From contig MEEW01000004.1 in assembly GCA_001724985.1 (NCBI GenBank), positions 1 through 36,230 on the forward strand: a DNA stretch of 36,230 nucleotides, in the 5' to 3' direction. Below the pieces are notes generated by a model. That model was given only the letters and a program-made list of their open reading frames with translations, had not been told where the DNA came from and ran no database searches. Made by a program: the position numbers and the translations under genes. The stretch comes from Phenylobacterium sp. SCN 69-14 (GTDB taxonomy: Bacteria > Pseudomonadota > Alphaproteobacteria > Caulobacterales > Caulobacteraceae). This document shows, piece by piece, positions 4,476-18,508 of this stretch (its first letter is position 1; every line of letters begins with the position of its first letter).

Positions 4476-4580
4476 GGCGAAGTATTCGCTCTTGCGCAAA
4501 ATTTGCGGAAGCCTTGCTGTGCAAATTACGCAGGCTTCCCGGCCATCCGCATATTTGCATTGCGCGAGGCGAATATTGGC
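4476..4580. promoter_or_regulatory. Cluster of five AT-cored palindromic motifs downstream of the Phd-PAS gene
   Basis: GCGAAgtaTTCGC (4477-4489), CGCAAAaTTTGCG (4495-4507), TGTGCAAATTACGCA (4518-4532), CGCATATTTGC (4548-4558), GCGAATATTGGC (4569-4580). Confidence 0.5.
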
Positions 4581-4665
4581 TCTCATCTTTTCGGTGCACG
4601 CAGCACCGTCTGCGTGCGCTTGAAGTAGCCTGCCGTCACCCAGCTCTCCGGCAGGTTCGCCCCCG

Positions 4666-4719
4666 ACCGGCTCAGCCGGTGCTCCGAGCGGCCGGGTCGT
4701 CCTGGCGGCCGCTCGGAGC
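4666..4719 (-). terminator. Tandem hairpins 3' of the Phd-PAS gene, probable terminator region
   Basis: GCTCCGAGCGGCCG-N11-CGGCCGCTCGGAGC (4681-4719, 14-bp perfect stem), then ACCGGCT-c-AGCCGGT (4666-4680). No strong U-tract. Confidence 0.5.
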
Positions 4720-4740
4720 TGTCGGGCGCGATGCGCCAGC

Positions 4741-5649
4741 CTAGATTTCGACGCCGACCACGGCGATGGCGATGCACGCCCCATCGCGGCGGATGGGCGC
4801 GCACGACACCTTCAGCCGGCAGGCCCCTTGCGTCCGCATCATCAGGTTGAACACCCCGACATGGCTCTCGGTCGTTCCGCAGACCAGGGTGTTCAGCGTG
4901 CGGGCGGTCTCCTCGCGGTCGGCCTCGGCGCACACGTCGATCAGGCGGATGCGTTCCAGGTCGCTGCGGGAAAAGCCCAGGATGTGACAAAGATAGTCGT
5001 TGGCGTAGCTGAAGAACCCCATAGGGTTCACATGGAAGATCGAGATCTCGCAGAGGTCGTTCAGCGCCCGGTGCTCGGTGCGCCAGACCTCCGAGGCGCG
5101 CCGCAGCTCGTGCAGTTCGGTCTCCTGCAGGAAGGTGTAGGCCAGCCCGCCGCGGAACGGGAAGATGCAGACGCTGTAGAGGCGGCTCGGATCGTTGACG
5201 CCGGTCATCTCGAAGCGGACGGCCTCGGCGGTGCGCAGCACCCGCCGCATCCAGGACACCAGCGTGGCGACGGCCTCGTTTTCCCGGGCCAGGGTCTCGA
5301 AGTCGAGCTGCATGGCCGCGTCGGCGTCCAGGCCCATATTGGCCGCGGCCACCGCGTTCAGGCCGCGGATGCGCAGGTCGCGGTCCAGCCACACGAACCC
5401 TTCGCGCATGTGCGCGGCCAGGGTGGTCACGCCGTCCATGCCCAGGTCGAAGTCGGCGATGTCCGGCGCGACGTCGCCGCGAGCGCTCAAGGCGAAGTAT
5501 TCGCTCGCGGACATCAGGACGACCCGGGGTCGGCCGTGATGGGTCACAAGGACTGGGTGCGACGCAGCCACGTCCTGCCAATGCCCGAAATTTCGACTGA
5601 TCTCGGCCGCCGATATTCTGCCGCCCGGCTGATCGAATCCTTTCGGCAT
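4741..5649 (-). CDS. Phd/YefM antitoxin-like N-terminal domain fused to tandem PAS domains
   Basis: From ATG at 5649: MPKGFDQPGGRISAAEISRNFGHWQDVAASHPVLVTHHGRPRVVLMSASEYFAL (Phd/YefM fold signature), then two PAS-like segments (MREGFVWLDRDLRIRGLNAVAAANMG...; CEISIFHVNPMGFFSYANDYLCHILGFSRSDLERIRLIDVC...). Confidence 0.8.
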   Translation of the reverse strand: MPKGFDQPGGRISAAEISRNFGHWQDVAASHPVLVTHHGRPRVVLMSASEYFALSARGDVAPDIADFDLGMDGVTTLAAHMREGFVWLDRDLRIRGLNAVAAANMGLDADAAMQLDFETLARENEAVATLVSWMRRVLRTAEAVRFEMTGVNDPSRLYSVCIFPFRGGLAYTFLQETELHELRRASEVWRTEHRALNDLCEISIFHVNPMGFFSYANDYLCHILGFSRSDLERIRLIDVCAEADREETARTLNTLVCGTTESHVGVFNLMMRTQGACRLKVSCAPIRRDGACIAIAVVGVEI

Positions 5650-5756
5650 AAATCCCCTTTGGGCCGCTGCGGTTATTAAGCCCGACGGAGCATGCGGCGG
5701 ACCGCCGCACCTGTTCAAGATGATCGGATGATGAATTTTACCTTTCGAGGGGCGGT

Positions 5757-5816
5757 GTGCAAAATGCACGGAAAATTTCTGCGTAAATTGCGTGACTTGT
5801 CGACGCAGGATTTGCG
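5757..5816. promoter_or_regulatory. Array of palindromic motifs in the divergent Phd-PAS / TPR-sulfotransferase promoter
   Basis: GTGCAaaaTGCAC (centre 5763), GAAAaTTTC (5775), GCGTAAATTGCGT (5787), CGCAGGATTTGCG (5810); spacings 12, 12, 23. Confidence 0.55.
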
Positions 5817-5901
5817 CGGCCGCAGACGCGACTGACCTTACGACGATCTTAAGCCTGCTCGGCCAAGCTGGCGCTTCGCGGACCGAACCCAGGGAGATTC
5901 C

Positions 5902-7407
5902 ATGTCCGAGTTCTTCCGATCGGGCCTCGCCGCGGCGCAGGCGCGCCAGCCGGCCGAAGCCCTGGCCTGGTTCGAACGCGCGGTCGCGGCCGATCCGGCC
6001 GACACCCAGGCCCGCGCCTGGCTCGGCCAGTCCCTCTGCGCCGTCGGCCGCCGCCTGGAAGGCGTCGAGGCCCTGCGGCGCGCGGGCGGCGACCTTCTCG
6101 ACCGCGGCGACCTCGACAAGGTCTGCACGGTCATCGGCCAGTTGCACGGCTGGGGCGATTTCCCCGGCGCCCTCGTTCTGGCGCGCTCGGCGGCGGCTAA
6201 GGCCCCGGAGAACCTTCAGGTCCAGCATCTGCTCGCCATCACCTGCGGCCAGCTCAACCTCACGGACGAAGCCTTGGCCGCCGCCGAGGCGGCCGACGCC
6301 CTGGCGCCCGGCAACGTCATGCTGCAGGTCTTCCGCGGCGCCCTGGAGGCCGACGCCCGGCGCTTCGAGGCCGCCCGGCCTCGCCTGGAACAGGTCCTGG
6401 CCGCCAGTCCCGGCCCCCGCGAAGCCCACCGGGCGCACAAGGAGTTGGCGCGGGTCCTCGACGCCCTGGGAGACTATGCGGGCGCCTTTGCGCATCTCGA
6501 CGCCGCCGCGCCGCTGGCCCAGGGTCTGCCCGAATTCCAGAGGCACGATCCGCGGTTCATTCCGGCCATGGTCTCGGCCAACCGGCAAGGGTTCACGCCC
6601 CAGCTCATGGGCCGCTGGCGCGCCCACGCCTTCGACGACCCCGCGCCGGTCTTCCTGCTCGGCTTCTTCCGCTCGGGCACGACCCTGGCTCAGCAGGTGC
6701 TGGACGTGCATCCGGACGTCTTCGTCTCCGACGAGGCGGGCCTGCTGGGGGAGGTCACGCGCGAGTTGCACGCCATGGTCCCCGGCATGGGCAATATTCA
6801 CAGCAAGCTGGACCGCCTGGACGCCGCCGGCGTGGCCGAGCTTCGCCGCGCCTACTGGCGCGCCGCCCAGGGCCGCTACGGCGAGGCGCTGCAGGGGCGC
6901 ATCCTGGTCGACAAGTTCACCCTCAGCACCGTGGACCTCGGCCTCATCAACACCATCTTCCCCGATGGGAAGGTGATCTTCGCCCAGCGCGATCCGCGCG
7001 ACGTCTGCGTCAGTTGCTACATGCAGCTCATGCCGCCGACCCCCGCCACCCGGCACCTTCAGGACTGGGAAGGCGCGGCCCAGTTCTACGCCCTGGTCAT
7101 GGACTGGTGGCTGTTCATACGGCCGCGGCTGACGCTTCCGGTCTTCGAGCTGCGCTATGAAGCGGCGGTCGGCGATTTCGAGGGGACGTTCCAAGCGGCT
7201 TTCGAATTCCTCGGGCTGGATCGGCCCGAGGGCGCCGAGACCTTCTACCGGAATGCGCGCGGCCGCTATGTCGCCAGCCCCAGCCGCAACCAGGTCTCCC
7301 AGCCGATCTATGGCTCTTCGGTGGCCAGATGGCGGCGCTACGAGGCGCCGGTCGCGCGCATCGCCGACCGCCTCGCCCCCTTCGTCCAGGCCTTCGGCTA
7401 CGCCTGA
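5902..7407 (+). CDS. Tetratricopeptide repeat - sulfotransferase fusion protein
   Basis: N-terminal TPR-like repeats; PAPS-binding motifs FLLGFFRSGTTLAQQVL (5'-PSB) and AQRDPRDVCVSCYMQ (3'-PB). Confidence 0.88.
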   Translation: MSEFFRSGLAAAQARQPAEALAWFERAVAADPADTQARAWLGQSLCAVGRRLEGVEALRRAGGDLLDRGDLDKVCTVIGQLHGWGDFPGALVLARSAAAKAPENLQVQHLLAITCGQLNLTDEALAAAEAADALAPGNVMLQVFRGALEADARRFEAARPRLEQVLAASPGPREAHRAHKELARVLDALGDYAGAFAHLDAAAPLAQGLPEFQRHDPRFIPAMVSANRQGFTPQLMGRWRAHAFDDPAPVFLLGFFRSGTTLAQQVLDVHPDVFVSDEAGLLGEVTRELHAMVPGMGNIHSKLDRLDAAGVAELRRAYWRAAQGRYGEALQGRILVDKFTLSTVDLGLINTIFPDGKVIFAQRDPRDVCVSCYMQLMPPTPATRHLQDWEGAAQFYALVMDWWLFIRPRLTLPVFELRYEAAVGDFEGTFQAAFEFLGLDRPEGAETFYRNARGRYVASPSRNQVSQPIYGSSVARWRRYEAPVARIADRLAPFVQAFGYA

Positions 7408-18000: not shown

Positions 18001-18444
18001 TTAGCCGCGCGGACGCCAGACGCCGTCGCGGTCACGGCACACCTGGAAGCTCTGGGTGCGGCCGTTGTAGCTGTCCTTCACCCAGCGGCAGTTGCTCGAG
18101 GCGGCGTAGTTGCTGCGCTGGACGGTGTTGTTGCGATAGGCCGCGCGCGGCGCGGGGCGATAGCGGTCGCACTTGGCGTTGCGCTTGCCGATCTCGTGGC
18201 CGGCCACCGCGCCCACCGCGCCGCCCAGCAGGGCGCCTTCGGTCTTGGCGCCCTTGGCCGCCACGCCGCCGCCCGCCAGGGCGCCGACCAGGCCGCCGAC
18301 GATGGTGCCCTTGTTGGCCTGCTGGCGGGTCTGCTCGCGGCAGGGATCGTAGGACTGGGCCGACGCCACGCCCGGCAGCGCGACCGTGGCGGGGACGGTC
18401 AGGGCCATCATCCCGGCGGCGGCGAAAGCAAGAGCTCGTTGCAT
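18001..18444 (-). CDS. Glycine-zipper domain exported protein, paralogue of the downstream gene
   Basis: Signal peptide; YDPCREQTRQQANKGTIVGGLVGALAGGGVAAKGAKTEGALLGGAVGAVAGHEIGKRNAKCD. Confidence 0.85.
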   Translation of the reverse strand: MQRALAFAAAGMMALTVPATVALPGVASAQSYDPCREQTRQQANKGTIVGGLVGALAGGGVAAKGAKTEGALLGGAVGAVAGHEIGKRNAKCDRYRPAPRAAYRNNTVQRSNYAASSNCRWVKDSYNGRTQSFQVCRDRDGVWRPRG

Positions 18445-18508
18445 CGGTCATCTCCTTCGTACATTGCGTAGGCGGCGCCGGAGCACCCCCTGCGCTGCGA
18501 AACTTGGC

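Follow-up and report, generated by a model that had tools for sequence, protein, structure and literature searches.

A Phd/YefM antitoxin fold joined to two PAS domains: a putative toxin-free one-component regulator in Phenylobacterium, with a family tie to Tad pilus genes

Annotation routinely labels Phd/YefM proteins as antitoxins, and genes in which this domain is joined to PAS domains would therefore pass for orphaned members of toxin-antitoxin systems. One such gene – here called phd-PAS – lies in a 36,230-nucleotide stretch of DNA from Phenylobacterium sp. SCN 69-14, the whole of which was analysed and is referred to as the window. It raises the question of what an antitoxin fold does in a sensor-like protein. 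A preliminary description had proposed that the fold serves as the DNA-binding output of a one-component PAS sensor. We consider it likely that phd-PAS encodes a toxin-free, self-regulating one-component transcription regulator with an antitoxin fold, and with an ancestral tie to Tad pilus and chemoreceptor genes. No description of a Phd/YefM-PAS protein was found in the open-licence literature.

The gene is a single unbroken reading frame with a purine-rich ribosome-binding stretch, AAAGGGGATTT, 5′ of the ATG. It is made up as follows:

4741..5649, minus strand: phd-PAS gene, 302 aa, a Phd/YefM domain and two PAS domains
5485..5616, minus strand: putative Phd/YefM DNA-binding domain, residues 12-55, SAAEISRNFGHWQD...PVLVTHHGRPRVVLMSASEY (Pfam, model, PDB fold matches, conservation)
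5122..5409, minus strand: PAS domain 1, residues 81-176 (Pfam and model)
5053..5121, minus strand: helical linker joining the PAS domains, residues 177-199 (model)
4747..5046, minus strand: PAS domain 2, residues 202-301 (Pfam, NCBIfam, model)

The N-terminal domain matches PhdYeFM_antitox (PF02604) at residues 12-55 (E 1.7e-7; 31.3 bits against a cut-off of 29.8) and exceeds the cut-off of the NCBIfam family phd_fam (TIGR01552), and Pfam places PAS_4 at residues 81-167 (E 6.7e-10) and PAS at residues 204-262 (E 6.7e-7). An AlphaFold model of the whole protein, computed with 24 sequences as input, has a mean pLDDT of 87 and contains two PAS folds connected via the long helix 177-199, with a weakly modelled linker (pLDDT about 60-70) after the N-terminal domain. 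Modelled alone, this domain forms a beta-alpha-alpha-beta-beta-alpha fold (pLDDT 87) whose 44 top PDB matches are every one Phd/YefM-type antitoxins, including E. coli YefM (2a6q, TM 0.72), operator-bound Phd (4zm2) and DNA-bound YefM-YoeB (6l8e). The best E-value is modest (2e-3) because the domain is short, and the ranking is unanimous. A PDB sequence search with the N-terminus returned mainly designed ‘Pizza’ repeat proteins at 4-7 bits per repeat and was discarded as a repeat artefact. Neither Pfam, NCBIfam nor AlphaFold finds a further output domain (kinase, GGDEF or other) in the 302-aa product, which joins a sensor and a putative DNA-binding domain in one soluble protein with neither kinase nor receiver. 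The earlier reading of the first ~55 residues as a Phd/YefM fold, followed by two PAS segments with no kinase, GGDEF or HTH output, is thus borne out, and both folds are recovered by the AlphaFold check that had been proposed. Dozens of relatives share the architecture and the frame is unbroken, so this arrangement is neither a frameshift between two genes nor an assembly artefact.

Full-length relatives, about 24-59% identical to the window protein, occur in 21 of 199 sampled Caulobacteraceae genomes and in a second Caulobacterales family – the outcome of the survey called for in the preliminary description – and are only sporadic elsewhere in the Alphaproteobacteria. A contig search with the single window protein gave nothing, and the relatives were found once an alignment was used. 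The 36 named phd-PAS loci come from Phenylobacterium, Caulobacter, Sphingomonas quercus, a Sphingomonadaceae MAG, Fulvimarina and unplaced Alphaproteobacteria. Conservation is highest in the N-terminal block SRNFGxWQ...THHGRPR, in which Arg19-Asn20-Phe21-Gly22 and His38-Gly39-x-Pro41-Arg42 are invariant in 24/24 aligned relatives, among which whole-protein identity to the window drops to 24-30%. In our own alignment Arg19 aligns with YefM R10 and the THHG loop lies near YefM R31, two residues reported to be essential for DNA binding by YefM (PMC4803016). Two shorter relatives, L057 (185 aa) and L060 (196 aa), keep the Phd block and an upstream palindrome (see below), and may have lost one PAS domain.

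The window genome clusters with Phenylobacterium genomes. In a tree of the family, the window gene groups with its nearest relative L025 (59%) and with L026-L028 in a distinct clade (support 100/100) whose members do not adjoin tad genes, and three Phenylobacterium genomes carry one copy of each type, tad-linked and window-clade. As part of the explanation given at the outset, we regard the window copy as probably a relocated paralogue that has departed from the tad locus.

Upstream of phd-PAS relatives a palindrome recurs, TgCGtAAaTTaCGcA, often as a series of copies stepped by 9 bp. It was derived by expectation-maximisation on 28 upstream regions, and sites of at least 8 bits occur at 11.2/kb within 250 bp upstream of the relatives versus 0.21/kb in the rest of the same loci (101 sites in 9.0 kb versus 87 in 414.6 kb). 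Spacings are mostly 9 or 18 bp, near one and two turns of DNA. Because the motif was learned from the same upstream regions that it describes, it was cross-validated between genera, with p-values taken against 205 control upstream regions. With Caulobacter as the sole training set, sites are found before 7/7 Phenylobacterium genes of the tad-linked type (p<=0.024), and also before L025 and the window gene (window p=0.010). With Phenylobacterium as the sole training set, sites are found before 8/8 Caulobacter genes (p<=0.034), as well as before the window gene (17.8 bits, exceeding all 205 controls), L025 (19.6 bits), L056 (Sphingomonadaceae) and L057 (Fulvimarina). The palindrome is present without adjoining tad genes at the window, L025, L051, L054 and L057. 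A clear palindrome is absent upstream of L026-L028, the closest relatives after L025, and of L052, L053, L055 and L058. The second Caulobacterales family has weaker upstream sites, which look like TTCGAA-type variants, and a diverged Phd block (IRNIG, HHGRER), a parallel that is suggestive only. Another conserved stretch, TGCGACCCTAGGGCGCAGTGTCAAG (TGCG-N9-CGCA), lies before the gene in L026, L027 and L028, and could be a changed operator or promoter element.

In the window, the palindrome and associated elements are located on both sides of phd-PAS:

5756..5818, unstranded: upstream candidate operator cluster, facing phd-PAS and the divergent sulfotransferase; sites at 5756-5772 (8.6-10.0 bits), 5780-5794 (TGCGTAAATTGCGTG, 17.4 bits) and 5804-5818 (9.5 bits)
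5735..5763, minus strand: sigma-70-like promoter of phd-PAS (TTTGCA, 17 bp, TAAAAT; consensus match only)
5902..7407, plus strand: TPR-sulfotransferase, 501 aa, divergent neighbour and possible second target of the upstream candidate operator
4476..4532, unstranded: second candidate operator cluster, 3′ of phd-PAS in a convergent intergenic region; sites at 4493-4509 (12.4-12.7 bits) and 4518-4532 (TGTGCAAATTACGCA, 16.1 bits)
4681..4719, minus strand: perfect 14-bp inverted repeat just past the stop codon, with no T-run

The sites at 5780-5794 and 4518-4532 are the only ones of at least 16 bits in the 36-kb window, where simulated sequence gives 0.0, and both fall within the regions (5757-5816 and 4476-4580) that the preliminary description had picked for footprinting. 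A sigma-70-like promoter match was found once, versus 0.2 expected. Its -35 hexamer falls inside the upstream cluster, a candidate palindromic operator at the gene’s own promoter, and because the cluster covers this hexamer its position fits autorepression of phd-PAS. Self-regulation is the only supported role for the window copy, and control of the divergent sulfotransferase is possible. The second cluster weakly resembles the upstream one (alignment score 30 versus at most 29 for shuffles), and a hidden small gene sought at 4476-4740 as its target yielded no convincing candidate. The inverted repeat at 4681-4719 is a possible transcription terminator, and a terminator search called none there. 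An exact 16-bp repeat, GGCGAAGTATTCGCTC, occurs at 4476-4491, on the edge of the downstream cluster, and at 5491-5506, inside the Phd coding region. One other site, at 18456-18470 (14.0 bits), is within chance, with 0.93 expected at 12 bits or more; it lies 12 bp before the gene for a small glycine-zipper-like secreted protein (window 18001-18470).

Among the 36 named loci, phd-PAS is divergent to a TadE-like and/or TadG-like gene of the Tad/Flp pilus in 23. The pairing is seen in Caulobacter, Phenylobacterium and two Sphingomonadaceae, with the genes on the opposite side varying by clade, and the second Caulobacterales family has a divergent tadE in 6/10 loci, mostly with tadG behind. When two genes stay divergently paired in three families although everything around them has been rearranged, they are usually a local regulator and its target, and the tadE-tadG operon is the probable ancestral neighbour and target of the family at large. 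Several tad-linked loci have two palindrome arrays, one ~70-90 bp before the tadE start and the other 15-45 bp before the phd-PAS start. The window genome, which is 77% complete, yielded no counterpart of the tadG next to phd-PAS in relatives; its one TadG-like gene (C28) is distinct from that phd-linked tadG and lacks a palindrome at the start.

Whole-genome searches used the exact pattern TNCGNAWWWTNCGNA, which is rare, and counts leave out TGCGAATTATTCGCA and the sites before phd-PAS itself. Seven Phenylobacterium genomes with phd-PAS have 29 such non-self sites, 14 of which precede chemoreceptor or MHYT kinase genes. Such sites lie before a PAS chemoreceptor in five genomes, before a protoglobin chemoreceptor in three and before an MHYT histidine kinase in three; another chemoreceptor is likewise preceded. 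In 21 Phenylobacterium genomes without phd-PAS, 0/37 sites precede chemoreceptor or MHYT genes. The difference (Fisher p 1e-6) is one of sites, and may in part reflect whether the chemoreceptor genes themselves are present; the two sets of genomes differ by phylogeny, and the p-value ignores kinship, the sites not being independent because several genomes are close relatives. One further TNCGNAWWWTNCGNA site lies within a cpa/Flp pilus locus (L126), and another is found within a different ORF, ~280 bp ahead of a Flp pilin (L101). Fetching one top site from G822, a site-rich genome of unknown status, revealed phd-PAS there. The window genome has no site matching the exact pattern. Putative targets sharing the candidate operator are seen for the Phenylobacterium relatives, and for the window copy only its own promoter has the sites. 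The palindrome before chemoreceptor and MHYT kinase genes suggests a regulon for surface and oxygen/redox-guided behaviour. That an antitoxin-derived, toxin-free PAS regulator family controls tadE-tadG and PAS/globin-type chemoreceptors in the Caulobacterales, and that this family is previously undescribed, is a joint reading that we place a little on the likely side.

The excluded palindrome TGCGAATTATTCGCA fits the search pattern, yet looks like another regulator’s site, and is probably the operator of one. It is a separate perfect palindrome found in several Phenylobacterium genomes (L097, L109, L111, L120, L121 and L122, position 1501), often before a gene reading like a TonB-dependent receptor.

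The palindrome might instead belong to a different transcription factor, with phd-PAS one of its targets alongside the tad and chemoreceptor genes, and perhaps a co-regulator. The motif was derived from promoters only, and L026-L028 encode the same Phd residues with no clear motif upstream, both of which this explanation would accommodate. We nonetheless think it unlikely, given that the motif tracks phd-PAS across genera despite different neighbours, as at the loci with no adjoining tad genes listed above, that the chemoreceptor and MHYT sites are confined to genomes carrying phd-PAS, and that the seemingly shifted sites of the second Caulobacterales family go with its diverged Phd block.

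In the window, phd-PAS is flanked by a 93-aa ORF with no Pfam match and by the TPR-sulfotransferase, in agreement with the preliminary description. At 19 representative loci, the genes and small ORFs around phd-PAS were searched with Pfam and PADLOC, plus individual checks, and the 25 commonest families listed; no toxin (RelE/ParE, Doc/Fic, PIN or similar) was found beside phd-PAS, nor an adjacent cognate toxin gene of the RelE/YoeB, Doc or VapC type among the neighbours examined. The consistent association of homologues with a toxin, named earlier as evidence that would count against the sensor reading, is therefore not seen among these 19 loci. The C-terminal toxin-binding tail is also absent, with two PAS domains in its place in full-length relatives. 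With no toxin partner among the neighbours examined and no toxin-binding tail, the Phd-PAS protein is, by the tests made, not a type II antitoxin. We think it very improbable that the protein is a true antitoxin paired either with a toxin gene located elsewhere in the genome or with an unrecognised small product of a nearby ORF, the PAS domains modulating neutralisation: most Phd/YefM domains are antitoxins, and some neighbouring small ORFs have no Pfam match, but these ORFs differ between species, the neighbours examined include no toxin family, the tail is replaced, and the conserved partners are pilus genes. Hardly credible, too, is a relic fold used for dimerisation or protein contact only, with PAS as a partner-switching sensor that binds no DNA, for although DNA binding is a deduction, conservation is highest on the DNA-facing Arg-Asn and HHG loop, and the candidate operator is co-conserved with that Phd block.

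The proposal of an antitoxin fold as the predicted DNA-binding output of a one-component PAS sensor has accordingly gained from several sides: the modelled fold, the top conservation of the DNA-facing block, the conserved palindrome, and neighbours that are conserved and are not toxins. We infer DNA binding, the sign of regulation and sensing from sequence, and picture the mechanism as follows. The Phd/YefM domain would dimerise and bind TgCGtAAaTTaCGcA-type palindromes, the dimer sitting on the stepped sites via its Phd domains with cooperative neighbours. The two PAS domains would sense a cytoplasmic signal, and signalling across the linker would alter palindrome occupancy. The protein would control its own promoter, in the family the divergent tadE-tadG operon, and in Phenylobacterium also PAS and protoglobin chemoreceptors and the MHYT histidine kinase. 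Its association with protoglobin, PAS and MHYT sensors hints that the signal may be oxygen or redox; no conserved His or Cys marking a PAS cofactor (heme or LOV-type) occurs in the aligned relatives.

Three known systems offer comparisons. PpsR/CrtJ, to which the phd-PAS protein has weak profile matches, likewise couples several cytoplasmic PAS domains to a DNA-binding domain within a single polypeptide, but its output is a C-terminal helix-turn-helix acting on photosynthesis genes, whereas that of phd-PAS would be the N-terminal Phd/YefM domain. The Phd (phage P1) and YefM (E. coli) antitoxins of PF02604 share the N-terminal beta-alpha-alpha-beta-beta-alpha domain, the conserved Arg in the first helices, and palindromic operators (here candidates) overlapping their own promoter; phd-PAS differs in having two PAS domains and neither toxin gene nor toxin-binding tail, and its palindromes recur every 9 bp around CG steps, whereas the YefM operator has TGTACA cores 12 bp apart (PMC7730913). 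SpoVT of Bacillus joins an AbrB/MazE-type DNA-binding domain to a GAF sensor and is a dedicated regulator with no toxin (PMC5061766). The logic is comparable, an antitoxin-shared DNA-binding fold joined to a sensor-type domain, but the fold (SpoVT/AbrB), the sensor (GAF) and the targets (sporulation) differ from those of phd-PAS, and the sequences are unrelated.

In phd-PAS, the Phd/YefM fold appears to be the part through which a sensor binds DNA and governs a regulon of its own, and would provide a concrete case of how antitoxin autoregulators turn into general transcription factors. It is also a candidate regulator tying together Tad pili, chemoreceptors and a PAS signal in Caulobacter-type bacteria, which serve as a model of surface sensing. 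If so, the Phd/YefM fold would have been recruited as a dedicated regulator that adjusts surface and aerotactic behaviour to the environment.

Adjoining phd-PAS in the window, the segment 1336-4064 reads like genes for a truncated haemoglobin, a cytochrome oxidase subunit I-type protein and an Rrf2-family regulator (Pfam confirmation for Rrf2 only), and is perhaps a nitric-oxide or oxygen response cluster.
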